Origin: Candidatus Gottesmanbacteria bacterium
GTDB taxonomy: Bacteria > Patescibacteriota > Microgenomatia > UBA10105
DNA: 38,849 nucleotides
Direction: 5' to 3'
Assembly (NCBI GenBank): GCA_023245415.1
Contig: JAHFKJ010000013.1
Location: forward strand, 1,027 to 39,875
This document shows positions 1 through 33,197 of this stretch, one piece after another. Each line of letters starts with the position of its first letter. The stretch's first letter is position 1. The position numbers and the translations under genes were made by a program. The notes under the pieces were generated by a model. The model saw only the letters and a list, made by a program, of their open reading frames with translations. It did no database searches and had not been told where the DNA came from.

Positions 1-765
1 ATAAATAAAATTAAACGAAATTTAAAAGTTGTTGGCCTAACATTTGTTCAATGGGTTACACTTTTTTTAAGTACGAAAGTTATTGTTTTCAGTAAGTATG
101 CACAAAATCATGTTTGGCAACGGTTCAAAATATCTAACGATAAAACGATTTTAATCCCTGGAACAATAGATAAAAACATACAATTTGCTAGTTTGAAACT
201 TAGGATAAAAAAAAGAAGCAATAAATTTACACTTCTCAATATTTCACGTTTCGAAAATAGAAAAGGTCATGATATTTTGCTTTATGCTGTCGATTTGCTT
301 TTGAAAAGAGGACTTAATGTTCAACTCATCATTCGTGGCCCCATAAGTGGAGAAATTATATCCGTTTTAAAAATTTATGAGTCCCTTAACCTTAAAAACC
401 ATATTTCGATACTCTATTCAGTAACGGAAAAAGAAAGACTTGAGCTTATGAAAACTGCAGATTTGTTCGTAATGCCGTCGCGAGAACTTGAAACTTTTGG
501 ATTAACTATTGTCGAATCCTTGGCTTGCGGTACACCAGTAGTAGGCACACCAGTAGGAGCTATACCCGAAATACTTTCTCTAGTTAATAAACACCTCATT
601 GCGAAATCATCCAGTCCTACAGATTTGGCAAACGCTATTTTTTGGTATATGAACCAAAATGTACGTCAAAGACGAAAAATTGCAAAGAAATGCCAGAAAG
701 TGATACTTAAACATTTTGAACAATCGTTGATAGTTAATAAGCTGAAACATATTTATAAACTATAA
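1..765 (+). CDS. Glycosyltransferase family 4 (GT-B), 5'-truncated by window edge
   Basis: The reading frame is open from base 1, so the N-terminal Rossmann half lies outside the window and the first visible start-like codon (TTG at 193) is not the real start. The visible part carries the GT4 C-terminal domain: 'LLNISRFENRKGHD', then 'ADLFVMPSRELETFGLTIVESLACGTPVVGTPVGAIPEIL', which holds the E-x7-E nucleotide-sugar/phosphate-binding motif and the usual Gly-rich turn. GT4 enzymes move a sugar from an NDP-sugar onto a lipid-linked or glycan acceptor at the cytoplasmic membrane face. It is the first gene of the AT-rich surface-glycan locus. Donor and acceptor cannot be read from the sequence. 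The family call is firm. Confidence 0.88.
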   Translation: MNKIKRNLKVVGLTFVQWVTLFLSTKVIVFSKYAQNHVWQRFKISNDKTILIPGTIDKNIQFASLKLRIKKRSNKFTLLNISRFENRKGHDILLYAVDLLLKRGLNVQLIIRGPISGEIISVLKIYESLNLKNHISILYSVTEKERLELMKTADLFVMPSRELETFGLTIVESLACGTPVVGTPVGAIPEILSLVNKHLIAKSSSPTDLANAIFWYMNQNVRQRRKIAKKCQKVILKHFEQSLIVNKLKHIYKL

Positions 766-805
766 ATATCATTTTTCATATTATTAGTTTTACAAAAAAA
801 TTCCC

Positions 806-2299
806 ATGAGAACTAAGAATAAAAAATTGGGACTTTTGATTTTAACTATTTTTGCAGAAGCTTATTTGATAGCAAACATTGTAGGTATACAAACAAATAT
901 ATTGTATCTGAATGGAAATTGGGAAAGCCAAAAAATGTTGCTAGCAAAAGGCGTTATTGGATCTGTTTCCTACTTTGTAACTCTACCCGCATTAGCTGGA
1001 AATCAATTAGATTTAGGAGCTTGGAACGGCTATCAAGAGATTGTACTGAAAAAAAAAGTTTCTCCTATAAAAATTCAGTTTAAATTTTATTTAGAACAAA
1101 ATACGTATCTAGATTTTCTGTATAACGGTAACGATATAAATTTTTCAGGCATACGCCTAAGCAGTAGTGAAAAGTACCCAAACATTTCATATGATGTAGA
1201 TTTTTCGGGTAAATTTATATCTCAATCAGCATTAACTAATACGCTCTTGAAGGCGAACTACTGGCACTCATTTCAATTAATAAAAGCGGGTCAAATTTAT
1301 AATATATCTTTAGACAACAGACTGCTTTATGAAGGAAACCATTATAAAGATAGTCAATTACTAGGCTTTCGTGGCAGCGCAAAACATTCATATGTTGACA
1401 ATATAACAATTACACAGGCTGACAATTCGGTTTTTTTTGAATCTTTTGAAAATAATCAAGTTAGAATTGTAATATTTACTATTTTAATTGTGGTTTTTAT
1501 GACAGCCGCTTATCTCGGGTACATATTACGAAGAGCTCACTTAACGACTGGTTATTCAACATCTCAGTTTATTCGAACACATTTTATATTTATAGTCTGT
1601 TTAATTATTTTTAACCTCATAAACATGCGTTTGGCTACTTGGTATCCTGATAACCCGGATAATATTAATTGGTATGGTTTTGAATCTAACATGGACAATA
1701 AAAGTACTGTTCTTAGTACAATTCATTACGCCTACTCTAAAGAAAAATTACCAAACGTAAATAGAATTCTGTTTTTGGGCACTTCCCAAACATGGGGAGC
1801 AGGAGCTTCATACGAAAGCAATACACTTGTCCAACAGTTTAGTAAAAAACTTTCTTCTCAGAAGAATAACCATCAGGAATACCAGGTTATTAACGCAGGA
1901 ATTTCAGGGTCTACAGCGACTGAACTTTTTGATTTTTATTCAAAGGAATGGATTTTTATGCATCCAAATACAGTAATACTTAATTTATCTAACAACGACA
2001 CAAATTATATATTATTTAGACAAATTTTAGATAAATTTGCCCATCTTAATAAAACGATGGGTATAACCACAGTATTTATTCTTGAACCGAACAGCGTCGA
2101 GGTTACCAACGAAAATCTAACTAAAAATCATTTAATAATGCAGGATATTGCCTTGAAATACACAATACCTGTAGTAAATATGCATGAGGAATTATCCAAA
2201 TACTCAAATCAAGGATTCCTCTGGTGGGACAGCGTGCATCTTACCGATTATGGACAAGATCAATTTGCCGAGATTTTATTTAAATCTATGCCATGGTGA
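806..2299 (+). CDS. Membrane-anchored SGNH/GDSL-hydrolase-fold protein with extracytoplasmic beta domain
   Basis: This is a 497-residue protein. A hydrophobic segment at about 8-26 is followed by a region of about 180 residues rich in beta strands (85-205), possibly a concanavalin/laminin-G-like fold. Two more membrane segments follow at about 220-241 and 258-276, then a C-terminal SGNH domain (about 318-497). The SGNH blocks are visible: GTSQTWG with the Ser nucleophile near 327, 'NAGISGSTATEL' supplying the Gly, 'NLSNNDTN' supplying the Asn, and 'WWDSVHLTDYG' with the catalytic Asp/His near 474/477. Such domains add or remove acyl groups on polysaccharides. In this locus an O-acetyl (or other acyl) transferase or esterase acting on exported glycan is likely, but the substrate is unknown. 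No Shine-Dalgarno is seen before the ATG. Confidence 0.75.
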   Translation: MRTKNKKLGLLILTIFAEAYLIANIVGIQTNILYLNGNWESQKMLLAKGVIGSVSYFVTLPALAGNQLDLGAWNGYQEIVLKKKVSPIKIQFKFYLEQNTYLDFLYNGNDINFSGIRLSSSEKYPNISYDVDFSGKFISQSALTNTLLKANYWHSFQLIKAGQIYNISLDNRLLYEGNHYKDSQLLGFRGSAKHSYVDNITITQADNSVFFESFENNQVRIVIFTILIVVFMTAAYLGYILRRAHLTTGYSTSQFIRTHFIFIVCLIIFNLINMRLATWYPDNPDNINWYGFESNMDNKSTVLSTIHYAYSKEKLPNVNRILFLGTSQTWGAGASYESNTLVQQFSKKLSSQKNNHQEYQVINAGISGSTATELFDFYSKEWIFMHPNTVILNLSNNDTNYILFRQILDKFAHLNKTMGITTVFILEPNSVEVTNENLTKNHLIMQDIALKYTIPVVNMHEELSKYSNQGFLWWDSVHLTDYGQDQFAEILFKSMPW

Positions 2300-2354
2300 T
2301 ATCAATTAGTTATTTAACAAATGTTTCAAACAAGTATAAACTGAGGTAGAATTC

Positions 2355-3296
2355 CTAAAATGTTTCCCTATTAATACATCTCATGGACATGCCAATTATA
2401 ATCCCATGAATGATTCGTAGTGCTTCACCTACAGAATAACCAATTTCAGTAACTAGTAATAAAATATTAAAGTCAGATTTTCCCTTAATCAATTTTTTGA
2501 TATGAAATTTTATTCCTTCAGAATAGAGTCTATTCCATACATTAATTAGAAAAAGTTTAATTAAATTGAAATCATTTGAATGAATATAATATGTCATATA
2601 TGCAAATTCTCCCGCAGTGTATTTTCCTTGTAATATTCTATACTCATGTTGAGTTAACCAACGATTATGATAATTAATAACCGATGGTTCAAAAGCTAAT
2701 GTGAATTTGCTGCGTAAAATTCTGTATATAATCTCGCCGTCTTCACCCCCTGCAATACCTAAATTTCCTGGTCCAAGCCATTCTTTGAAACCTCCAATAG
2801 TCTTGAATATTTTCTTTCGAAGACTCATGTTGCTTCCTAAACCGAGGACTTGGTGATGAATAATATACGGATCTTTCACAACATTCTGTATATTTTGATA
2901 AAAAATAGAAGGGCAAATTAATTTATGATGCGCTTCAGGATGATAGGGTAAAATTGAACCAAATACGCCATCAACTTGAGCGTTAGTAGATAAAAATGTA
3001 TTGATTTTAAATAACCAATTTTTCGATACAAGGTTATCATCATCAATAAAACTATAAATATCTCCTTTTGATTTTTTAATTGCAGTATTAATTGTTTTTG
3101 TTTTTCCCACGCGATGATCTTTAAAATAGATAAGATTGAAATAATTGTATTTTCGAACAACTTCTTGAGTTAAGTCATTATTGCTTTGATCACCAATGAT
3201 AATTTCGAAATCTTTAAAAGAGTTTTTAAATAAAGACTGCAAACATCTATCAATATGGAATTGTCTATTTTTTGTACTAATAATTACGGATATCAT
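2355..3296 (-). CDS. Glycosyltransferase family 2 (GT-A fold)
   Basis: This 313-residue protein opens with the classic GT2 start 'MISVIISTKNR', followed by 'EIIIGDQSNND' and the metal/nucleotide-binding DDD at residues 85-87 (FIDDDNLV). A further acidic pair, ED at 185-186 in 'GGEDGEIIYRIL', matches the catalytic-base region of GT2 enzymes. No strong membrane span is visible, so it is probably cytoplasmic or peripheral. It would transfer a sugar from an NDP-sugar to a growing lipid-linked glycan. It heads a minus-strand group with the membrane protein and SGNH protein downstream of it in coordinates. Sugar specificity cannot be inferred. A longer overlapping frame inside it is a shadow. Confidence 0.88.
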   Translation of the reverse strand: MISVIISTKNRQFHIDRCLQSLFKNSFKDFEIIIGDQSNNDLTQEVVRKYNYFNLIYFKDHRVGKTKTINTAIKKSKGDIYSFIDDDNLVSKNWLFKINTFLSTNAQVDGVFGSILPYHPEAHHKLICPSIFYQNIQNVVKDPYIIHHQVLGLGSNMSLRKKIFKTIGGFKEWLGPGNLGIAGGEDGEIIYRILRSKFTLAFEPSVINYHNRWLTQHEYRILQGKYTAGEFAYMTYYIHSNDFNLIKLFLINVWNRLYSEGIKFHIKKLIKGKSDFNILLLVTEIGYSVGEALRIIHGIIIGMSMRCINRETF

Positions 3297-3333
3297 AAAA
3301 AAATTATGAACTATTGAAAGAGAACTTCAATCT

Positions 3334-4653
3334 TTACTTCGCAAAGTAACTTAACTTACTATCTTCTAAGATCTTAAGTAGTTCCTTTAAGTAGTCTGTT
3401 CTGTCTGGACTAATTATTAAGAAATTTGTTTTATTTGAACAATAGTCACTATCTTTGGTTTCTAAATAACAGTTCTTCCACTCAGTTGAGCCTATATATA
3501 TATAATTCGCATAGTCGTAGGGTTTTTTTGCATTTAAAAAATCACTGTTATAAATATAAAGCACCAGCAATAAGATCAAGAGTGTCCAACGTAATTTTAA
3601 TTTCTGTACATACCACGTTGCAATATAAATTCCAAAATAGAGTGGTAATTGGTGTGTGATATAGCGGGTCAAATATGCATGTTCAATCCCTGATGACCAA
3701 CGTTGAAAAACTACGAAAATGGCAAACATATAACTATAGAGAAATAAACAAATAACGGGGTAATACTGGGAGAATTTTATATCTCTACTAAGCAAAAAAC
3801 AGACATAACCAAAGTACACTATTGAAATTATAAAAACAACTGGGCTCAATATTTCCATCGATTGCCAGCCAAGTACGCTATTTATTTGTAAATAAATGCT
3901 TTGAATAAAAAACGAAAGGGGAGGCAAAGTATAAATTTTAACAAGAGAAAAATTGTAATTTATGAAGTATCCCCCAATAAAACTTAACATGATTAGCACA
4001 CACACCCAATACATAAGAGATTGTTTACGATGAGATGTATGTAGAGCTTCATATAAAAAGAAAATGCCAGTAAATAAAACCAAATATAACCCTTGGAGTG
4101 AAGAAAATGTACTCAAAAAGGTAATTCCAATTAATAACAAGTTTCGTTTATTAGTTGATTCATGTGTGTATAAATTAAGACCAATTAAAAATAAAAAAAC
4201 TGGGAGAACAAAAGTTAATTGAAACCCGTGCAGCAAATTACCTGATTGCTGTAATGTTAGAAATAAAAACCCGATATAAGCATCTAGTACCGAAATTGAG
4301 TGTGTAAGTCTGTACTTAAGTCGAAACGCAAGCAAACAAGAACATTGCAGAAGACCTACAGTTACTAATGATTCGAATCGTGTGTTCCATTGAGACAATA
4401 TTGCTAAAATTTTTATAATCACCAGTCCAACTCCTATTCGATGCGCATTCTGCTGATATAAAAAAACTTTGAAATAATCTTTTTCACTTACTATTGCATG
4501 CAACACATCTAAATGATCCCAAGAAACAAAGTTAGTAGTATAATTTAAAATAAAAGAATAAAGTCGCAAAGTTAGGCAGACGTACAGAAACAAAAGAATT
4601 ACAGGAGTAAAATATTTATATTTTAGTAAAAATTTTATTATAAAATATTTCAT
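3334..4653 (-). CDS. Polytopic membrane protein, possible GT-C-type glycosyltransferase
   Basis: This 439-residue protein has about ten hydrophobic segments. After the first span comes an extracytoplasmic-type loop, 'NFVSWDHLDVLHAIVSEKDYFKVFLYQQNAHRIG', whose acidic and His residues are placed like the catalytic loop of lipid-linked-sugar-dependent GT-C enzymes. The C-terminal hydrophilic tail contains several Cys residues (about 395-410). No signature decides the family: it could be a GT-C transferase, an O-antigen polymerase-like protein or another glycan-locus membrane protein. It sits 5 nt from the SGNH protein gene upstream of it and is surely co-transcribed. The glycan role rests on the neighbourhood. 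Confidence 0.55.
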   Translation of the reverse strand: MKYFIIKFLLKYKYFTPVILLFLYVCLTLRLYSFILNYTTNFVSWDHLDVLHAIVSEKDYFKVFLYQQNAHRIGVGLVIIKILAILSQWNTRFESLVTVGLLQCSCLLAFRLKYRLTHSISVLDAYIGFLFLTLQQSGNLLHGFQLTFVLPVFLFLIGLNLYTHESTNKRNLLLIGITFLSTFSSLQGLYLVLFTGIFFLYEALHTSHRKQSLMYWVCVLIMLSFIGGYFINYNFSLVKIYTLPPLSFFIQSIYLQINSVLGWQSMEILSPVVFIISIVYFGYVCFLLSRDIKFSQYYPVICLFLYSYMFAIFVVFQRWSSGIEHAYLTRYITHQLPLYFGIYIATWYVQKLKLRWTLLILLLVLYIYNSDFLNAKKPYDYANYIYIGSTEWKNCYLETKDSDYCSNKTNFLIISPDRTDYLKELLKILEDSKLSYFAK

Positions 4654-4658
4654 TTATT

Positions 4659-5834
4659 TCACAATTTTTCCTTTAGTATTTCTTCTAAGTTTTTGGAGAT
4701 AATTTCATTTCCTTCGGGAGTAACATGACATTCATCAATGAATATTGATTCTTGTTCATTATCAAATATTGCTGTTAGATCATAAAAATTTTTGAGATGT
4801 GTTTTCTTTATCCTATCGGTAATGAGGATGTACATGAGCTCTGGATTATTGGGATTGTAGTGATTTATTCTTTTTTCGTCATTCGTTCTGATTTTTTTTG
4901 TGAACAGAAGAGGTTGCCAAACCAATATATACTTAAACCCATACGTTTGAGATAATGCATCAATAACTTTTACGTTTTGTTCATAATTACCGATTACCCG
5001 ATCAACAAAGGTGTCATTCTCTATCTGTGGAACTTGTAAATTTATTTCTGATTTCGTTGTTTTACCTAAAAGATTTTCGATAATTTTTTGTGTGTAATAA
5101 TAAAGCTTAATATATTTAGGGCTATAGTTCTTAATAAGCATAAGTAAATCGCTATTAAACAAACTTAAGTTTGTTGGACTTTCTCTTTGAAAAAATTGCC
5201 ACATATTACCCATTTTAAATTTTATACCCTCTTCATAAAATACTGAATAAGTACTCAACCCATGCTTCAAATCAAAAAATAAATCGTTACAACCATCATA
5301 GAAGATGATTATGCTGGGTTTTTTACCTTCTTTAAGTACTTGTGTAAGATACACTAACTCTTGATTACTATTAAATGCAATCTGCCCAAAATTAGTAACA
5401 CTATAAATATGAGACGCAGTATTTAGATTTTTTGCCAATAATGAAGATATAGTTTCATTATCTGAAGTATAAACTCCCCACAAAGTTGATCCTCCAAACA
5501 TAAAAACTTGAGTTTCATTCTCTAAATAGCCATGACTATTAAACATAGTTTCTCTTATTCTTTCCTGAGTAATGTGTACATGCTCTTTTTGCATAGGACG
5601 CGGAAGCCAACCAAGTAAGGGGTGATAATCAGCATATATCCATGCACTTTCTTCGAATCGCCAGCGGTTTTTTGAATTACGCAGATACCAATTCTCCGAA
5701 ATTTGTCGTTTTAAGTAGAGATTATCTTGATATTTATAATAAAGGTATCGTCCCAATGAAACTAATTGCAATAATAACTCTATGATAAAAAGAAGTTTTA
5801 AAACATTTACCCCAAACTTAACACCTATTGACAT
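4659..5834 (-). CDS. Membrane-anchored SGNH/GDSL-hydrolase-fold protein
   Basis: This 391-residue protein has an N-terminal membrane anchor (about 8-27) and a complete set of SGNH blocks: 'FMFGGSTLWG' (Ser nucleophile), 'VTNFGQIAFNS' (Gly), 'IIFYDGCNDLFFD' (G-x-N-D, Asn) and 'FIDECHVTPEGNEI' (Asp-x-x-His). The catalytic domain would lie outside the membrane. Related proteins are esterases or acyltransferases acting on surface carbohydrates. It is a second SGNH protein in the same locus as the one at 806-2299, but the two share little beyond the motifs. It lies between the ABC transporter genes and the polytopic membrane protein on the same strand, with gaps of 25 and 4 nt. The substrate is unknown. 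Confidence 0.78.
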   Translation of the reverse strand: MSIGVKFGVNVLKLLFIIELLLQLVSLGRYLYYKYQDNLYLKRQISENWYLRNSKNRWRFEESAWIYADYHPLLGWLPRPMQKEHVHITQERIRETMFNSHGYLENETQVFMFGGSTLWGVYTSDNETISSLLAKNLNTASHIYSVTNFGQIAFNSNQELVYLTQVLKEGKKPSIIIFYDGCNDLFFDLKHGLSTYSVFYEEGIKFKMGNMWQFFQRESPTNLSLFNSDLLMLIKNYSPKYIKLYYYTQKIIENLLGKTTKSEINLQVPQIENDTFVDRVIGNYEQNVKVIDALSQTYGFKYILVWQPLLFTKKIRTNDEKRINHYNPNNPELMYILITDRIKKTHLKNFYDLTAIFDNEQESIFIDECHVTPEGNEIISKNLEEILKEKL

Positions 5835-5859
5835 GATTTTCCCACAATCTGATTAAGCA

Positions 5860-6561
5860 TTATAAAACACAACCATTTTCCAAAGTAAGTATCCGGTCGC
5901 AGTTTTTTCGTATGTACTCCAACCAATGAGATGCTATTACAATTGTTTTTCCCTGTTCAAAATAGTCTTGAATTTTAGCATTCGATTTTTGTTGAAATTT
6001 AACATCTCCAGTATTTAACCCTTCATCAAGAATAAGAACAGCTGGATCAGCATGGACAGCAATAGAAAATCCTAATCTTAATTTCATTCCCTCGGAATAA
6101 ATAAACAAAGAAGCGTCTATAAATTGACCGATGTCTGCGAAAGCGATGATCGAATCTAATTTGCATTCTATTTCTTTTTTATTCATTCCTAAAAGCATCC
6201 CATTTAAATAAATGTTGTCTATCCCAGTCAAATCTGGGTGAAATCCAGCTTCTAAGTCAATTAAAGACACAACCTTACCGTAAGTTATAACAGTACCTGA
6301 AGTTGGAGAAGTGATACCGGAAATAATTTTCAAAAGTGTGGTTTTGCCGCTGCCGTTAGGGCCGATGATGCCGATTTTTTCACCTTTTTTAATGGTCAAG
6401 TTAATATCCTTTAAAGCCCAAAACTCTTCAGTCTTTCCTTTTATGAGATGTTCGACAAGCGTTGGTTTTTCATGGTGTATTGTATAGCGCTTCGACACAC
6501 CTGATAACTTGATTGCTATATCTGCATGTGATCTTGAGTTTCGATTCTTAACTGTCTTCAT
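5860..6561 (-). CDS. ABC exporter ATP-binding protein (Wzt/TagH-like), polysaccharide export
   Basis: I choose the ATG at 6561 (233 residues). It overlaps the permease stop as ATGA, the usual coupled arrangement. A TTG two codons upstream is the alternative start (6567). Walker A is GPNGSGKT (67-74), the family-typical 'FHPDLTG' precedes the signature, and the signature is 'YSEGMKLRLGF' (about 155-165). Walker B 'AVLILDEGLNTGD' and the H-loop 'IASHW' (His212) follow. The pattern is that of the exporters of O-antigen, teichoic acid and capsule. The protein ends right after the nucleotide-binding domain, so it lacks the C-terminal carbohydrate-binding domain of the E. coli O9a Wzt type. It would power glycan export with the adjacent permease. 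Confidence 0.9.
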   Translation of the reverse strand: MKTVKNRNSRSHADIAIKLSGVSKRYTIHHEKPTLVEHLIKGKTEEFWALKDINLTIKKGEKIGIIGPNGSGKTTLLKIISGITSPTSGTVITYGKVVSLIDLEAGFHPDLTGIDNIYLNGMLLGMNKKEIECKLDSIIAFADIGQFIDASLFIYSEGMKLRLGFSIAVHADPAVLILDEGLNTGDVKFQQKSNAKIQDYFEQGKTIVIASHWLEYIRKNCDRILTLENGCVL

Positions 6562-7334
6562 ACCCAATCGTCGAAATTTTTACTTTCAAGTTTAAACACA
6601 ATAATACCTAATACTAGGAATAGCATAGATATCGACAAGTTTATAAGCAGCATTCCCCATCCCGGAGGAGGAGCACCTGAAAAAATAAACTGAAATAACT
6701 GGACAATTGAGGTTAAGGGATTGATCCGCCATAACCACATGAGGTTATAAGGAACAACGGAAATCGAGTAAACAATCGGCGTAGCGTAAAACCAGAGTAT
6801 TAATACGGCTTGAACAAAAAAATTCACATCGCGAAATCTCACATTCAGAGCTGATGTGAATAAACTTATACCAATTGAAAATATCAGTAATAAGAATAAG
6901 GCGATGAGTAAGATGGGTATATTTTTAATATCGAATAAGCCGTTAATAACGACAGGTACGGAAAATAATCCTAAGGCTATAACTAAGTTAATTGCATTTG
7001 AAAAAATAATGGAAAGTGGAATAACTGAATGCGGAAATCTGGATTTTTTGATAAGTGAACGTTCGTAAACAATCGAAGGTGTGGTTTTTGAGAGTGTCAG
7101 GCTGAAAAAATTCCAGACTAATAGTCCGCAAAAAAGATAATAAAAATAGTTGGATATCGGCTCTTTTATAAACAATCTGAATATAAAACCGATAACCAGC
7201 ATTTGTAGAAGTGGATTAATCAATATCCACAAAAATCCAAACACTGTATGTTTATATCGGGATTTTAATTCTTTCTCAGTCATTCCGCAAAGTAAATCCC
7301 AGAATAGCCTAATTTCATAACTTTTACTTTTCAT
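6558..7334 (-). CDS. ABC-2-type permease of polysaccharide exporter (Wzm/TagG-like)
   Basis: This 258-residue protein has about six membrane spans. The N-terminal amphipathic start 'LLCGMTEKELKSRYKHTVFGFLWILINPLLQMLVIGFIF' is characteristic of the ABC-2 polysaccharide/teichoic-acid exporter permeases, as is the later 'LNVRFRDVNFFVQAVLILWFYATPIVYS'. It forms the membrane channel for lipid-linked glycan and pairs with the ATPase encoded downstream (4-nt overlap). Its promoter appears to share a palindromic -10 region with the divergent sugar transferase gene. Length is normal for the family. Confidence 0.9.
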   Translation of the reverse strand: MKSKSYEIRLFWDLLCGMTEKELKSRYKHTVFGFLWILINPLLQMLVIGFIFRLFIKEPISNYFYYLFCGLLVWNFFSLTLSKTTPSIVYERSLIKKSRFPHSVIPLSIIFSNAINLVIALGLFSVPVVINGLFDIKNIPILLIALFLLLIFSIGISLFTSALNVRFRDVNFFVQAVLILWFYATPIVYSISVVPYNLMWLWRINPLTSIVQLFQFIFSGAPPPGWGMLLINLSISMLFLVLGIIVFKLESKNFDDWV

Positions 7335-7345
7335 AAAGATGTTTC

Positions 7346-7355
7346 ATTATATAAT
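7346..7355. promoter_or_regulatory. Overlapping divergent -10 boxes (ATTATATAAT)
   Basis: The palindrome ATTATATAAT contains TATAAT on both strands: plus at 7350-7355, minus at 7351-7346. On the minus strand the box ends 11 nt before the permease ATG. On the plus strand it ends 6 nt before a TTG (7362) and 15 nt before the ATG (7371) of the sugar transferase gene. Neither gene has a recognisable Shine-Dalgarno, so both mRNAs would have almost no leader. No clear -35 boxes are seen. Confidence 0.55.
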
Positions 7356-7370
7356 ACAAATTTGCTTTAT

Positions 7371-7982
7371 ATGAAAATTCTATCGTTTATATTATTTATG
7401 TTGTTTTTAAATTGCTTAATTTTGGTGTGTATTCCAATATTAATCTTCATAAGTCTGATAATAGTAATGACATCCGGTTTACCTATTTTCTTTATAGAAG
7501 ATCGTGTGGGATTAAATGGAAAAAATTTTAGACTCTTCAAATTCCGTACAATGGTAAAAAACGCACCACGATTAAAGTCTAAAGTGAAATACTTAAATGA
7601 AGCAGATGGTCCGGTTTTCAAAATTCATCATGACCCCCGTTTTACTAAAATCGGCCGATATTTAAGTCACACCGGTCTCGATGAATTACCGCAACTTTTT
7701 AATGTTTTAAAAGGGGAAATGGCGTTAATCGGCCCGCGACCGTTACCTATTGCAGAATCTTCGAAGTTAAAAAGCTGGCAATTAAAACGTTTACAAATTA
7801 AACCGGGAATCATCTCACCCTGGATCGTCAGTGGCTATCACAATCAATCTTTTAGCAAATGGATGAAAAGTGATATTAAGTATGTTCAAAATAAAAATTT
7901 TTTTATTGACGTAGTTGTACTGATTCAAAGTATTGTATTTGTGATAAAACAACTTATACATGAAACTAAAATTTCAATTTAA
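7371..7982 (+). CDS. Phosphoglycosyl transferase (bacterial sugar transferase, WcaJ/PglC-like)
   Basis: The product is about 203 residues from the ATG at 7371. A TTG at 7362 would add three residues and is an alternative start because the -10 box is so close. One N-terminal hydrophobic re-entrant helix (about 1-35) is followed by the conserved core 'IEDRVGLNGKNFRLFKFRTM', then 'FTKIGRYLSHTGLDELPQLFNVLKGEMALIGPRPLP', with the Asp-Glu dyad at about 104-105. Monotopic phosphoglycosyl transferases move a sugar-1-phosphate from an NDP-sugar to undecaprenyl phosphate, the first step of glycan assembly. It fits the neighbouring glycosyltransferases and ABC exporter. It has only the minimal catalytic domain, without the N-terminal four-helix/CoA-binding part of long WcaJ proteins. 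Confidence 0.9.
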   Translation: MKILSFILFMLFLNCLILVCIPILIFISLIIVMTSGLPIFFIEDRVGLNGKNFRLFKFRTMVKNAPRLKSKVKYLNEADGPVFKIHHDPRFTKIGRYLSHTGLDELPQLFNVLKGEMALIGPRPLPIAESSKLKSWQLKRLQIKPGIISPWIVSGYHNQSFSKWMKSDIKYVQNKNFFIDVVVLIQSIVFVIKQLIHETKISI

Positions 7983-7989
7983 CGCTTGA

Positions 7990-8526
7990 TTATTTGTTTC
8001 TTAAGCTCACTTGTGTTTTAAATAATTGAAAAGACGTTTCTGCCGCAGTTTTATTTGTTCCAGCTTCTTTCAAGTTAAACGCTATAGATATCGCTTTTGC
8101 GCCGGTCGTTGACGATGTGCAGGTAAATGCAATATTTGCCGTATCACAAGCGGGAACAGCTACTGCCGAATTAGTCAACACTCGAATTGTTCCAGATATG
8201 TTTTCTTCGATTGCTAATGAAGTTGAATTGCATTGAAATGTCGACTGGGTATTGTCAGAATTAAGAATAGTTAATTGATTGCTTGCTACTCCTGTACAAG
8301 TAGACACATCAAGGGAGTTGCGGATTTTTATTTCCATTACTGCCACAGTATAATCTCCATTCTGTTTTATTTCCTTAATAATATCTGCTTTTGAAGCTCC
8401 ATGAAGCAAACCGAATAGAGCAGCGCTTAAAACAGTCGAAATGATCCCCACTATAACGATAGTGATCATCATTTCAATTAAGGAAAATCCATAACTGTGC
8501 CGGCGGTAGTTCATATTTATTGCCAT
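7990..8526 (-). CDS. Type IV minor pilin / pseudopilin, PilW/GspJ-like
   Basis: This 178-residue protein has a prepilin leader ending in Gly: '...RRHSYG|FSLIEMMITIVIVGIISTVLSAALFGLLHG', with Glu at +5, which is the prepilin peptidase site plus the alpha1 assembly helix. The rest is a beta-rich extracellular head. The pattern 'FSLIEMMI' and the position as last gene of the minor pilin run suggest a GspJ/PilW-type subunit. The start is at 8526, overlapping the preceding pilin by 10 nt; the second ATG at 8514 is an alternative that removes the overlap. It is the final gene of the pilus operon and converges with the sugar transferase gene, with only 7 nt between the two stops. Confidence 0.82.
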   Translation of the reverse strand: MAINMNYRRHSYGFSLIEMMITIVIVGIISTVLSAALFGLLHGASKADIIKEIKQNGDYTVAVMEIKIRNSLDVSTCTGVASNQLTILNSDNTQSTFQCNSTSLAIEENISGTIRVLTNSAVAVPACDTANIAFTCTSSTTGAKAISIAFNLKEAGTNKTAAETSFQLFKTQVSLRNK

Positions 8527-28394: not shown

Positions 28395-29321
28395 TTACTT
28401 TCCGTGGAATTTCCTATGGATTTCTTTAAGTTGCGGGTTGGTCACATGGGTATACACTTGAGTAGTTGAAACATTTTTGTGTCCAAGCATTTCCTGAATC
28501 GCCCTCAGATCTGCTCCAGCTGACAATAAATCAGTGGCAAAGGTGTGACGTATTCCGTGAGGAGTGATCTTAATCGGTAATTTAGCTTTCTTTACATATT
28601 TTTCAACCGCCCGCTGGACACTTCTTGCACTGAGGCGTATCCCTTCTTCACCTTTGCCTTTGCCGACTTTTTTGCCCGAATAGCGTACAAACAATGGTTT
28701 GTAGGGATCCACGCGGTAGCTCAAATATTTCTGCAGCCACTCAAGTGCCGTGTCAGAGATAAATACTAAGCGCGGTTTACTGCCCTTGCCGATGATACCG
28801 AGTTCGCGGGTTTTGAAATCAATCTGGTCGCGATTAAGCTTCACGAGTTCTGATACTCTAAGTCCTGTGGAAAACAACAGTTCAATCATCGCTTTGTCGC
28901 GCATCCCCTGGGCTGTGGACATATCGGGTTGATTGACAAGCCGCGTCAATTGATCACGACTTAAAAATTTAAGACTGTGGGACTCGGCTTTTCCCAATTC
29001 AATTTTTTCCGGGGAAAGCGTTTGAATATCTTTCCGGGCAAGAAACCGCAAAAATGTCCGCAGTGCAATCAAGTGATAATTTTGCGTAATACGTTTTAGC
29101 GTTAGACCTTTGGCATTGCTAAGGCGGGTGAGAAACAAACGGTAACGGCGAATCGTATCCTGATTTATGTCTTTGTTATCTGGCACAGTAGGGGAGCAGT
29201 CTGCCAACCAGTTGGAAAAGCGCTTCAGATAATGTCTGTAGTTACGGATAGTAAGCGGGGAGACATTTTTCTCAATTTCGAGGAATTCTAGAAATTCAGT
29301 GATAAGTTCAGGAATTTTCAT
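28395..29321 (-). CDS. Tyrosine recombinase, XerC/XerD-like
   Basis: This 308-residue protein has an N-terminal SAM-like core-binding domain (about 1-95: 'FLEFLEIEKNVSPLTIRNYRHYLKRF') and a catalytic domain with the full set of active-site residues. These are Arg155 ('STGLRVSEL'), Lys179 ('GKGSKPR'), His256-x-x-Arg259 ('HGIRHTF'), His281 ('LGHKN') and Tyr290 ('TQVYTHV'). Size and spacing are those of chromosomal XerC/XerD proteins, which resolve chromosome dimers at dif. It stands alone with no integrase-like mobile genes around, so a housekeeping Xer is more likely than a phage integrase. CPR genomes often encode a single Xer-type enzyme. Confidence 0.9.
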   Translation of the reverse strand: MKIPELITEFLEFLEIEKNVSPLTIRNYRHYLKRFSNWLADCSPTVPDNKDINQDTIRRYRLFLTRLSNAKGLTLKRITQNYHLIALRTFLRFLARKDIQTLSPEKIELGKAESHSLKFLSRDQLTRLVNQPDMSTAQGMRDKAMIELLFSTGLRVSELVKLNRDQIDFKTRELGIIGKGSKPRLVFISDTALEWLQKYLSYRVDPYKPLFVRYSGKKVGKGKGEEGIRLSARSVQRAVEKYVKKAKLPIKITPHGIRHTFATDLLSAGADLRAIQEMLGHKNVSTTQVYTHVTNPQLKEIHRKFHGK

Positions 29322-29487: not shown

Positions 29488-29493
29488 ATGCTA

Positions 29494-30408
29494 ATGAAAT
29501 TAGGCATTAAAATAGGTCTAAAAAGTAACTGGAAAAGTGACTTGCTGGCAACCCGTCCGGATTTCTGCGAAATTTGGTTTGACAGCCGAAAAATATCTCT
29601 CTATGAACCTATTTTTAAATTTGTTCGGGAAATCGGCTGCCAAGTGGGCTTACATTTTTGGGGGGCGTTACCGGATGGAACACTTACTAACCTGGCTTAT
29701 CCTGATAAAGAAATATTAAACGCTTCGCGTACATTAGTAAAAAAGACTATTGAAACTGCAGCTAAATATGATGCGCTATATGTAAACATTCACCCCGGCG
29801 GGACGCTTTTAACCCGAGTAGATTTTGAACGGCAGCAATTTTTGCCCTATACCAAACTTCTATCCTATGACACAACTCTGAATATTCTTCGTCAATCGTT
29901 AGAAGAATTAAGCAGTTTTGCATCTGTGCAGGGAATTCTGTTCTGTGTCGAAAGTGTACCGTACCTGGCTCTGGGACATCCCTGGCATGGCAAATCAGGA
30001 CGTTACAATCCTGTAAATATTGGTGAAATCCCGATTACTGAATTGAAACGCTTGTTACCGATGGAAAACGTCTACTTCGCCAATGATTTTGGACATACCT
30101 GTGCTAATCTGACCATACCGGACCGGGAAATAATCAAATCCTGGCTATTTCGAACAACTTTGGAATTTGCCCAAAATACCAAACTTATACATGTCAGCTA
30201 TATAGTACCACCGTATAATGGCACCGATTACCACGGTAGTCTCTACTTTGATGAATTTAAAACTCAAGCTGCATTACCAAATTATTCTGAAATGCTGGAA
30301 CTTCTGAAAGTATTTAAGAACCGCAGCGATATTCATGCACTGGTCGAACCCGAATCGGATCATATAGGTAATTTTAAATTCCTTAAAATTCTCGTCGAAA
30401 GATTATAA
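29494..30408 (+). CDS. Xylose-isomerase-like TIM-barrel protein (AP endonuclease 2 superfamily)
   Basis: The product is 304 residues from the ATG at 29494; the ATG at 29488 would sit on the -10 box. The order of metal-ligand-like residues fits the sugar-phosphate isomerase/epimerase and AP endonuclease 2 superfamily: 'VGLHFWG', 'YVNIHPGG', 'LFCVESVPY', 'YFANDFGHTCAN', 'LIHVSY', 'DYHGSLYFDEF' and 'ALVEPESDH'. Such proteins act as soluble isomerases, epimerases or endonucleases with two or three divalent metals. Exact activity cannot be told, and no pathway neighbours are present. The palindrome upstream suggests it is specifically regulated. Confidence 0.65.
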   Translation: MKLGIKIGLKSNWKSDLLATRPDFCEIWFDSRKISLYEPIFKFVREIGCQVGLHFWGALPDGTLTNLAYPDKEILNASRTLVKKTIETAAKYDALYVNIHPGGTLLTRVDFERQQFLPYTKLLSYDTTLNILRQSLEELSSFASVQGILFCVESVPYLALGHPWHGKSGRYNPVNIGEIPITELKRLLPMENVYFANDFGHTCANLTIPDREIIKSWLFRTTLEFAQNTKLIHVSYIVPPYNGTDYHGSLYFDEFKTQAALPNYSEMLELLKVFKNRSDIHALVEPESDHIGNFKFLKILVERL

Positions 30409-30830
30409 ATCCAGGTATTAGGCTATACGCCTCTACAATGACCTAGAACGGCTGAAATTTAGGTTAACTGGCATTTCTGAGCAAAAAAATATCAGATGTT
30501 ATGATTTGTGCTAAGCTTGAACACCAGTTTTATTCGTAAATCCGGTTACATTGAAATTAAATAATTAAATTATTGATTGTATATAAGTAAACATTATGCC
30601 TGGAATCTGGAGAATTAAGACAATAATTCAAGTTTTTCAGCATTAGAAGTAGAAATAATCAGAATTACTATTTGTCCAAAAATCGGACTTCTCCGCACAA
30701 AACCTCAATTTAACGTCGCAAAAGTATTATTGTGCGACATCGTAGTTTTAGCCTGAAATCTCTCTTCTCTTAATTTGCCTAAGTTTTATTAATTCTAACC
30801 TGACACAAGTCCTACAGAACGAAATATCGT

Positions 30831-30857
30831 CTCCGTTTACCCATAGAGGGAACGGAG
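30831..30857. ncRNA. Stable bulged hairpin of possible structured RNA
   Basis: CTCCGTT (30831-30837) pairs perfectly with AACGGAG (30851-30857). Inside, CCC (30840-30842) pairs with GGG (30848-30850) over an ATAGA loop, leaving a 2-nt bulge. A 10-bp GC-containing stem in an AT-rich spacer suggests a piece of a structured RNA. The possible terminator 96 nt downstream could mark its 3' end. The RNA family is not recognised. Confidence 0.35.
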
Positions 30858-30913
30858 TTTATTGGAAGAATTCACTAGCTGCTCTAAAACGTAAGACGCT
30901 GACGATTATTCTG

Positions 30914-31421
30914 TATAAAAATACGTGAGTTAGAACTTAAGAAGGCATTTACAAGAGTCTCTTATCAACTCTTTTTTTTTGCAGACTTGCAGTTCGATTT
31001 AGGCTGTCTTAATAGTCTAAACATTCTAATTCGAAGCTAATATAAGTAAACGCATTAATAGATTCATCTCATTGAAAGGTGATTATTTAGCTGTCAGAAC
31101 AATCTCAGCCGTCATTTCCGAAGTTATAGATATTTTTCCCGCAACCACGTAAATATTACCATGTTGACTGTATTCTGATCTACGACAATTATTAATCTTA
31201 TTTTAGAGCCTTAATATGCTCCGTAGTCACCATTTTGAAGCTGAAAAACACGGATTAAAAAATTTAACCAGCACTTATATTTGAGAGTACATGGTACTTA
31301 TTGAGGGTATAAAGATAACATCACACGCGGTAAAGGTGCATTAAATCCTTAGTGAACCAGACTTTAGAAAGTTAAGGCAAAGATATACAAAAATTGTGAA
31401 ATAACATATAAAAATACGTGA
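30914..31421 (+). repeat. 15-bp direct repeat TATAAAAATACGTGA, two copies
   Basis: Identical copies lie at 30914-30928 and 31407-31421, about 490 bp apart in non-coding DNA. A 15-mer match is unlikely by chance in a stretch this short, even allowing for AT richness. The second copy is only 4 nt from the consensus DnaA box. Each copy could be a protein-binding site or a -10-containing promoter element. Confidence 0.5.
30953..30980 (+). terminator. Possible Rho-independent terminator
   Basis: AAGAGT (30953-30958) and ACTCTT (30968-30973) form a 6-bp stem with a 9-nt loop, followed by a run of nine T (30972-30980). The stem is weak in GC, but the T-run is the longest in this spacer. It would end a plus-strand transcript, either from the TIM-barrel gene or from a non-coding RNA in the gap. 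Confidence 0.4.
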
Positions 31422-31425
31422 AAAC

Positions 31426-31434
31426 TTATCCACA
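31426..31434 (+). promoter_or_regulatory. Consensus DnaA box TTATCCACA
   Basis: This is an exact match to the high-affinity DnaA box. It is followed within about 70 bp by a ~120-bp segment made almost only of A and T (31500-31620), which resembles a DNA-unwinding element. Only one perfect box is seen; TTATCAACT at 30962 is a weak second. Single boxes also occur by chance, so an origin is only a possibility. Confidence 0.4.
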
Positions 31435-31626
31435 TACTATAGGTTTGAATAGGTCAAACTGCATCACAAGTCTTCTATTCGAACCACTTCCCTCTTCCCT
31501 GAAAAAAGATAAGCATTTTAAATTAATAATTATTTAAGATAACTAAATAAATTAATATTAAATTAATTATTTTTTATATATTCAAAAATTCGAATTTATG
31601 ATAAGTAATTAGAAAATAGAAATTTC

Positions 31627-32457
31627 TTAAAGTATCCCCTCTCCCCATTTAGTCGTAAAGACTACTAACAAAAAAACGACTACCAGAACCAGTACAAATT
31701 CACGAATTGTTTTGGTAAACAAACGCTCCACCAAATATTGTTGGGTCATGCCAACAAGTGTATACAGAACTGCTGTAACAAGTACCGCCTCCTGAATTAG
31801 TTGAATTGGCCAAAACGACAGAATAATCACCAATTCTGTTATAACAAGAGTGATTACCAGTGATCCTATCCAGGCAGCAGAGGAAACCGCAGACGTTAAC
31901 TCCATTGACCATAACGCTTGTAAGACTAACGGAAATGTGATGAGTATAGTAAGCAGGGCATTCATGAAAAATGGCAAGTGTAGGGAAAGAGCCGTATCGA
32001 TAAGTAAATACTCGGTAACGAGTGTTAATATAAGACCGATACTATGAGCAGCTCTAAGTAGCTGGATGTTTCTTTCAGCAGCGATATTAAATATATTTTC
32101 GCATAATAAAATGGCATACATTCCCACAGCGTACAAAGCTAAAATAGGTAATCTAGTCAACCAGCGCGCTGGTAAAAGATAATAGAATAAAAACACAGCA
32201 GCTGTAAAAAATGTGGGCAGCGTCAGAAGTGTGACATATTCCCAACCCGCCAGCACATCTCTCAGGACTATAGCAGACAGCAGATACGTACCGGCTATTA
32301 AAACTAGCAACAGATCTACACGGATGCTTCCGGAAATAAGCTGAGTTGCGGCTAAGGTACTCGCTAAAATAAGAGTGGCTATAACAAACTGCTGGCGTTT
32401 GGAAAATGAAAATGCATTATTGAGCGTTCTTCCAATATTATGTAATAATTTATTCAT
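31627..32457 (-). CDS. Polytopic membrane protein of unknown function, partner of yebC
   Basis: This 276-residue protein has about eight hydrophobic segments spread along its length and short loops. No catalytic motif is seen. Its ATG overlaps the yebC stop as ATGA (32457-32454), so the two are translated together. I recall similar membrane proteins beside yebC in Patescibacteria (a DUF5656-like family), but I cannot confirm this from sequence alone. Function is unknown. Confidence 0.7.
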   Translation of the reverse strand: MNKLLHNIGRTLNNAFSFSKRQQFVIATLILASTLAATQLISGSIRVDLLLVLIAGTYLLSAIVLRDVLAGWEYVTLLTLPTFFTAAVFLFYYLLPARWLTRLPILALYAVGMYAILLCENIFNIAAERNIQLLRAAHSIGLILTLVTEYLLIDTALSLHLPFFMNALLTILITFPLVLQALWSMELTSAVSSAAWIGSLVITLVITELVIILSFWPIQLIQEAVLVTAVLYTLVGMTQQYLVERLFTKTIREFVLVLVVVFLLVVFTTKWGEGIL

Positions 32458-33197
32458 TTTATAAACTCATTTGGAATTCCTACATTGCTAAATACCTTGT
32501 GCACATCGTCCAACTCTTCCAAAGATTGTAAGAACTTGATGATTTTCGAAGAACTGGTCTGATCGGATAAGCGAATACTTGTTTGAGGTTTATATATAAG
32601 TTCAGCGGAAGTTATAACCAGCCCGTTTTTTTCTAAAATCAGTTTTAATTTATGTAAATCTTGAGGGAGTGATTGAACATAGAACTTGGCTGATCCTTCT
32701 TCGATATCCTGAACTTGAGCCGTTACTGAAATATTAAACAATTCATCATATGAAAGTGTTTTATCGCAAGTAACAATCCCCACCTGTGTAAATATATGAC
32801 GTACGCAACCAGTTGACCCTAAGTGCCCGCCGTGAGCTATAAAGAAATTTTTAAGAAGCGCTGTCGATCGCTGATGATTGTCTGTGACCGCTTCGATAAG
32901 TACTGCGACCCCCAGAGGCGCGAACCCTTCATATAAAATTTCTTCAAGACCTGTTTCTCCGGTATTTATAACAGCCCTTTTAATCGCCCGCTCAATGTTC
33001 TCTTTTGGCATGTTTGCGTCCCTGGCTTTTTCGACCGCCAACCGCAATTTAAAATTGCTCTGCGGATCACTCACCCCTCCTCCATCGCGAACGGCAATGG
33101 TAATTTGCGCCGCAAGTTTGGTAAAAATTCTTCCTTTAGCTTGATCGTTTGCCCCTTTTTGGTGTTTGATAGTTGACCACTTGCTGTGACCTGACAT
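32454..33197 (-). CDS. yebC: YebC/PmpR/TACO1 family protein
   Basis: This 247-residue protein begins with the family hallmark 'MSGHSKWSTIKHQKGANDQAKGRIFTKLAAQITIAVRDGGG', followed by 'NFKLRLAVEKARDANMPKENIERAIKRA' and 'EEILYEGFAPLGVAVLIEAVTDNHQRS'. All three domains are present. Family members were first described as DNA-binding transcription regulators; more recent work links YebC/TACO1 to relieving ribosome stalling on proline stretches. It starts the two-gene unit with the membrane protein. The TATAAT at 33211-33206 ends 8 nt before the ATG, so the transcript should be leaderless. Confidence 0.95.
   Translation of the reverse strand: MSGHSKWSTIKHQKGANDQAKGRIFTKLAAQITIAVRDGGGVSDPQSNFKLRLAVEKARDANMPKENIERAIKRAVINTGETGLEEILYEGFAPLGVAVLIEAVTDNHQRSTALLKNFFIAHGGHLGSTGCVRHIFTQVGIVTCDKTLSYDELFNISVTAQVQDIEEGSAKFYVQSLPQDLHKLKLILEKNGLVITSAELIYKPQTSIRLSDQTSSSKIIKFLQSLEELDDVHKVFSNVGIPNEFIK

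Follow-up and report, generated by a model that had tools for sequence, protein, structure and literature searches.

A probable dif site and a conserved companion array at the presumed chromosome terminus of a Candidatus Gottesmanbacteria genome

The window, that is, the whole stretch of 38,849 nucleotides that was analysed, stems from a Candidatus Gottesmanbacteria genome of 1.55 Mb in 60 contigs (G000; window G000:C2:1027-39875). It contains a gap of 1,218 bp at 30409-31626 that lacks any listed ORF of at least 80 aa and is bounded by two convergent genes at 29488-30408 (plus strand) and 31627-32457 (minus strand). The second-largest intergenic gap in the window, with the genes taken from the ORF list, comprises only 166 bp, and an earlier note on this DNA had thus rightly singled out the region. 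The gene at 31627-32457 encodes a DUF5656 membrane protein (PF18900) and is followed by a YebC/PmpR-family gene at 32454-33197 (minus strand; NCBIfam NF001030, above cut-off). In the named collection, YebC is most similar to a protein of Candidatus Levybacteria (51%), which suggests a Patescibacterium of the Microgenomates type. The Xer-type gene that the note had reported close to the gap is present at 28395-29321 (minus strand). The AT-rich end that it had described was also found: the GC content is 0.31 for the gap and 0.09 for 31510-31600. The claim of two sets of internal direct repeats was borne out for one exact 15-mer pair, at 30914 and 31407; a repeat of this length occurred in 2 of 200 dinucleotide shuffles. 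As a separate observation, 34 bp just after the TIM-barrel gene (30421-30454) match genome G025 at 88%. In addition, positions 1-8000 of the window have a GC content of 0.314, compared with 0.393 for the remainder, and are possibly a recently acquired block.

Other features proposed for the gap were not confirmed. The T run, taken for a terminator-like site, consists of 9 T at 30972, but the search for intrinsic terminators in the gap yielded 0 against 0.8 expected. The several hairpins were not reflected in the predicted RNA fold of 30450-31400, which was ordinary (z = -0.76, with 5 of 20 shuffles equally stable), and the covariance-model search that the note had proposed found no Rfam family, tRNA or tmRNA in the gap.

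According to the earlier note, a lack of conservation between close relatives together with the lack of a transcript would have spoken for decayed sequence. Two short conserved elements, which were not visible to its author, were found within the gap. When the gap was searched against 59 genomes, its own included, 33 matched, and all 32 other genomes matched on the first of these elements, in one stretch within query positions 269-340. The aligned sequence reads ACGTCGYAAAA-GTATTA-TTGTGCGACAT. For the further analysis 64 loci were aligned, which were obtained from 71 by removing 7 second-site or doubtful matches (L094, L095, L259 and L266-L269). These loci are phylogenetically non-independent, with 51 distinct 28-mers among them, and many were found by searches with the site pattern or with YebC, which favours conserved copies and YebC as a neighbour. 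Strong conservation in this alignment was confined to 30713-30740, plus a weaker tail of about 4 bp downstream.

These 28 bp (plus strand) have the 11-6-11 layout of Xer recombination sites, with two inverted arms of 11 bp that flank a centre of 6 bp: the left arm ACGTCGCAAAA at 30713-30723, the centre GTATTA at 30724-30729, and the right arm TTGTGCGACAT at 30730-30740. The arms are nearly identical, and the centre is more variable. The consensus is RCGTCGYAWAA for the left arm and ATGTCGYACAA for the right arm, read inwards. The two arms differ constantly at position 9, which is A or T on the left and C on the right, and the element is therefore no perfect hairpin. This bears on the proposal of an unknown structured non-coding RNA in the gap, in which the palindrome would form a hairpin. 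The palindrome could indeed fold as GTCGCA/TGCGAC; however, columns 8 and 19 do not pair in 55 of the 64 sites, nor do the outer columns 1 and 26 in 40, the fold and Rfam results given above point the same way, and RNAalifold on 36 copies of the second conserved element returned no structure, albeit from a gappy alignment. We consider an RNA at this place hardly credible.

The distribution of the site was surveyed at two levels. Within the class, the pattern was present at up to 2 mismatches in 220 of 280 genomes, compared with 56 of 280 for the reversed pattern (hand count), so that this threshold is permissive. With no more than 1 mismatch allowed, it was present in 151 of 286 genomes of the whole phylum, compared with 4 of 286 for the reversed control (hand count). 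Four genomes were also scanned in sampled stretches that total about 1.56 Mb without N; the sole match there at up to 3 mismatches was the own site of G003. The sites of G053 and G029 have 1-2 mismatches to the pattern. A second place at up to 2 mismatches occurred in 4 of 15 genomes (G005, G011, G017 and G029), some of them of a distinct kind. There is a single principal site per chromosome, and it is intergenic, with unannotated ORFs of at least 90 aa running across it in 9 of the 64 loci.

The Xer-type gene encodes an XerA-type tyrosine recombinase of 308 aa (hereafter type A), which contains Pfam domains PF00589 and PF02899 and matches the NCBIfam XerC and XerD models with E values of 2e-75 and 6e-73 (254 and 246 bits), both under the curated cut-offs. 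It aligns nearly over its full length with the structure of E. coli XerD (1a0p), including the R, K, HxxR, H and Y residues, which we take to be the catalytic residues of Xer. Of 21 genomes searched, 18 encode a close orthologue (53-100% identity), and in 17 of these 18 the site adjoins the gene, at 0.24 to 6.8 kb and in 15 genomes at no more than 2 kb. The exception is G048, which has a close Xer (65%) but a degenerate site with an intact left and a broken right arm. G047 has a type-A Xer as well; no type-A site was found in the short locus scanned, where the contig ends near the gene. Among the 64 loci, Xer lies within the covered DNA in 39, and 22 of the other 25 span less than 2 kb on that side; in the remaining three (L019, L024 and L026), the covered DNA extends about 4.4 kb from the site in the direction of Xer and contains no Xer match. 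The recombinase encoded 1.4 kb from the site in the window presumably acts on it.

Where visible, the gene order is Xer - site - DUF5656 - YebC, with the site in one orientation; two loci (L031 and L125) were reoriented manually to place DUF5656 at the right. DUF5656 stands beside the site in 61 of the 64 loci. YebC was seen within the covered DNA in 28 of 64, although many loci do not extend far enough to include it; 17 of the 64 come from the YebC search, which selects for this neighbour. A second Xer-like protein with 25-32% identity is encoded in 18 of 21 genomes, and in the five genomes compared (G003, G011, G042, G052 and G057) its gene lies within about 105 kb of dnaA. This paralogue is a possible partner recombinase. 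The copy in G000 (L265:2234-3103 on G000:C59) has 289 aa, and its HxxR motif reads NDLR.

Dif-like second sites were observed in five genomes (L266:5965, L267:6753, L268:5946, L269:5828 and L259:5490). One half of each matches the right arm of the principal site, the other half has diverged, and TTGAGGCTA-type repeats adjoin. Genes that look ftsZ-like by eye are no more than about 4 kb from three of the five, and a tyrosine integrase-like ORF is near two; they are possibly elements that exploit Xer. Apart from Patescibacteria, the central 22 bp of the site occur exactly and once on the Phyllobacterium plasmid NZ_CP104972.1 (L349:1501-1522), where a gene with the annotation recombinase family protein follows after 24 bp. 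With E = 0.2 the match is at chance level and probably fortuitous, though its placement is suggestive. It was the only match in the plasmid collection and is too weak for use, and no match was found in the phage collection or, by exact matches only, among viral contigs.

These observations have to be weighed against the view that a mobile element uses the conserved palindrome for attachment, or left it behind as a residue, and that the nearby Xer is the integrase of that element. It would agree with the adjacency of gene and palindrome, with the position of two second sites (L259 and L268) near other integrases, and with the plasmid match. However, there is one principal site in a conserved gene order in the loci examined, the site occurs across the phylum and lies near the strand switch of the chromosome described below, and mobile elements are unlikely to hold one syntenic place across such distances. 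We therefore regard a mobile-element origin as very unlikely.

The position on the chromosome was assessed with sampled stretches of four relatives assembled in one contig. The distance between the maximum of the detrended cumulative GC skew and the site was 0.2% (G003), 3.1% (G057), 7.1% (G042) and 12.6% (G052) of the chromosome, which, assuming random positions, corresponds to a combined p of 0.003. For G042 and G052 these distances amount to 56 kb and 138 kb, respectively. The skew minimum was close to dnaA, at no more than 19 kb in three relatives and at 45 kb in G057.

When 7-mers were ranked by strand polarity in the four one-contig genomes, a choice that used the split between dnaA and the site, AGGGGAG came first. 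Seven G-rich 7-mers point at the site in the 64 loci, with 148 versus 32 occurrences on the left and 319 versus 30 on the right, and their polarity switches within 100 bp left of the site. The same 7-mers read backwards are also polarised (69:31 left and 222:28 right), so that a general strand bias accounts for some of the polarity; together with the way in which the motifs were chosen, this leaves the strand switch firm and the exact motif less so. A CTTCTCC block at 30688-30694 (plus strand; GGAGAAG on the minus strand), 19-25 bp left of the site, is a motif of the polar type with right-hand polarity; it is weakly conserved, with 0.2-0.6 bit for each of the columns -25 to -19. Counted per sampled stretch, AGGGGAG/GGGGAGA change strand around the site in G003, G042 and G052, and in G052 and G042 this switch lies nearer to the site than the GC-skew maximum does. 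In G057, the stretch just before the site (770-790 kb) already shows 1:3, a small count, so that the switch occurs one sampled stretch earlier; the other strand switch of the motifs lies nearer to 310 kb than to dnaA at 190 kb. In summary, KOPS-like polar sequences converge on the site, which is firmly established for the strand switch and less certain for the identity of the motif.

The FtsK-gamma domain is encoded in 20 of 21 genomes, including G000; it was not found in G030. Short open frames of 94-245 aa with an FtsK-gamma domain also occur apart from the full FtsK (G052:C1:684210-684392, G046:C4:19796-19975, G029:C4:242402-242578 and G028:C2:2837-3010), and might be decoys or parts of mobile elements.

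G057 is also of interest with respect to the skew itself. Excerpts of PMC7143001 describe that in some Microgenomates the cumulative GC skew only falls, with unidirectional replication among the proposed explanations. The skew of G057 (L174-L193) resembles that of the genomes in these excerpts, as it is negative in all sampled segments listed (mean -0.137). Its polar motifs are distributed 33:25 on one arm between dnaA and the site and 5:47 on the other, and the strand change near the site thus argues for two replication arms.

In the class, 27 genomes that had no type-A match in the class survey were searched for a diverged Xer. A scan for any 11-6-11 palindrome near diverged Xer genes was too weak on its own, but supplied the lead to type B. 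A diverged Xer with about 35% identity to the window Xer (type B) was complete in 17 of the 27 genomes and present as a fragment in G154. It was not found in the other nine (G058, G098, G115, G093, G078, G092, G117, G047 and G048), of which G047 and G048 have the type-A Xer instead. Adjoining the type-B gene is another 11-6-11 palindrome, ACTGAGTGTAA-GRGATA-TTATACTCAGT (pattern from G046). It was found at up to 5 mismatches in 13 of the 17 genomes and at 6 in G107, but not in G028, G128 and G181; in the sampled stretches the pattern had 0 matches at up to 5 mismatches and 11 at 6. In type-B loci with enough covered DNA, DUF5656 and YebC again came next. In a FastTree of the Xer proteins, 35 type-A sequences formed one clade apart from 18 of type B, but the type-A node had a support of 0.15 and, with the outgroup chosen, the type-B sequences were not monophyletic; therefore, the types are told apart by their identities. 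In G154, the fragment (L326, G154:C19) is a C-terminal part of a type-B Xer (94 aa at 75% identity) with type-A-like Xer genes next to it, and we read it as a putative broken or replaced terminus recombinase.

Both types occur in family f4. G052 has the type-A Xer gene and the type-A site. G083, G209 and G112 keep this gene, but have in addition a type-B Xer and a type-B-like site between it and DUF5656. The type-B-like site occupies the place of the type-A site of G052, and no type-A site at up to 5 mismatches was left at the locus. This comparison indicates that recombinase and target change together and in place. Judged from these sequences, the exchange of Xer and site at one locus appears to be a natural swap, and it offers a natural experiment on the joint change of a recombinase and its target within one family.

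The second conserved element of the gap is an array between the site and DUF5656 on the plus strand. It starts with TGTGAAA ... CGTGAAAA at 31395-31424, with copies 22 bp apart, followed by one copy of TTATCCACA at 31426-31434. The last part, 31437-31466, comprises CTATAGG at 31437-31443 and a degenerate copy of CTATATCA-N2-CTATATCA at 31450-31466. A GTGAAA(A) doublet with a distance of about 22 bp was present on either strand up to 1.2 kb on the DUF5656 side of the site in 48 of the 64 loci. The CTATATCA-N2-CTATATCA repeat, at up to 2 mismatches, was found in 51 of 64 loci, compared with 5 matches away from the site in the sampled stretches; the repeat of the window itself is too degenerate to be among the 51 and was assigned by position and by eye. 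CCTATAR or CTATAGG was also seen in the array by eye. The CGTGAAAA repeats were considered as parS, but no canonical parS was present in the sampled stretches, the dnaA loci or the window, and in the own genome only a 2-mismatch match on C60 was found, with the reversed control matching equally often, so that the repeats were not taken for parS.

Exactly one TTATCCACA, which we take to be the DnaA-box consensus, was found in 36 of the 64 loci, compared with 2.9 expected from its density in four genomes. It is always on the DUF5656 side, 149 to 952 bp from the site and with constant strand. The same sequence is enriched at dnaA, with 29 copies in 48.7 kb or about 39 times the background, so that a box of the DnaA type stands at the presumed terminus. 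That the gap holds a replication origin, as the earlier note had also considered, would fit this conserved box at 31426 next to direct repeats and an AT-rich stretch. However, TTATCCACA is present beside dnaA in 14 of 14 dnaA loci, at least two TTATNCACA boxes accompany it in 10 of these, and dnaA lies near the skew minimum. An oriC is recognised by a cluster of DnaA boxes at the minimum of the GC skew; the gap has a single box and is located, in the four relatives, near the maximum. An origin in the gap is accordingly extremely improbable.

The array lies downstream of both flanking genes and thus is no promoter for them. Near the type-B sites, at least one of the three scored array motifs was found in 17 of 18 loci examined, with 3 mismatches allowed for the repeat; in the eighteenth (L325), the covered DNA ends before the array side. 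Because the array persists whichever type of Xer and site adjoins, it may serve the terminus rather than the recombinase. We read 31395-31466 as a separate conserved DNA element of the terminus that is probably bound by protein. It is conceivable, although we advance this only tentatively and as possible rather than probable, that the array forms a hitherto undescribed nucleoprotein element at the terminus of Patescibacteria; it might, for instance, trap forks or organise the terminus by recruiting the initiator DnaA, or another reader of the same box, to the site where replication finishes.

Taken together, the gap very probably represents the chromosome terminus locus, with 30713-30740 as the dif site for dimer resolution by Xer. 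Among the earlier proposals it is the Xer/segregation site that is strongly supported, by architecture, conservation, a single principal placement, linkage to Xer, the terminus position in relatives, the strand switch of polar motifs, and the matched change of Xer and site. The site shows each defining feature of dif that can be tested computationally. An odd number of crossovers after replication would link the two circles into a dimer. At the septum, FtsK would then pump the DNA, steered by the polar G-rich sequences aimed at dif, until two copies of dif meet. Xer, whose gene lies 1.4 kb from dif, would bind both 11-bp arms, either by itself or together with a partner, cut at the 6-bp centre and exchange the strands, yielding two monomers. 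Binding, cleavage and activation by FtsK are predicted from the sequence, as is the possible action of Xer on its own or with a partner.

Among the matches listed from the open-licence literature, which includes few subscription journals and preprints, there was neither a published dif site of Patescibacteria nor a DnaA box beside dif. Apparently new here are two interchangeable Xer/dif specificities and a conserved companion array, and the real novelty may lie in the array, which raises the question of which factor binds a box of the DnaA type located there. In addition, dif provides a tag by which the terminus can be recognised in the sequences of a large phylum with few cultured members, and this tag makes the puzzle of the falling skew in Microgenomates testable.

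The system resembles known dif/Xer systems to different extents; the published features compared here are those given in excerpts of the sources. Like E. coli dif with XerCD (PMC5357621, PMC3025954), the site has 28 bp with 11-bp arms and a 6-bp centre, is intergenic and at the terminus, and is accompanied by FtsK-gamma and polar G-rich sequences; unlike E. coli dif, it has its own arm consensus. According to Kono et al., xerC mostly lies close to dif, with xerD close to the origin and ftsK in between, whereas here Xer is usually beside the site; the second, weaker paralogue, a possible partner, is likewise found towards dnaA. Recombinase gene and site are linked as a module, as in difSL/XerS and difH/XerH (PMC2731167, PMC5357621). 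However, difSL measures 31 bp and has a centre of 11 bp, in contrast to the 6-bp centre found here. The window Xer scores 142 bits against the XerS model (cut-off 267), compared with its XerC and XerD scores given above, and its E value is 1e-37 against the XerD structure and 3e-10 against XerH; site and Xer of the window thus do not belong to the single-recombinase difSL/XerS type. Archaeal dif/XerA also has a 28-bp site of 11-6-11, and the window Xer reaches 213.6 against the archaeal XerA model NF040815 (cut-off 220), but dimer resolution in archaea reportedly proceeds without FtsK (PMC5357621), whereas FtsK-gamma is present here. Lastly, Legionella XerL/dif had likewise been overlooked because of sequence divergence (PMC9765430); in Legionella, more than 400 kb separate dif from xerL, whereas in the genomes studied here the site and Xer are neighbours.
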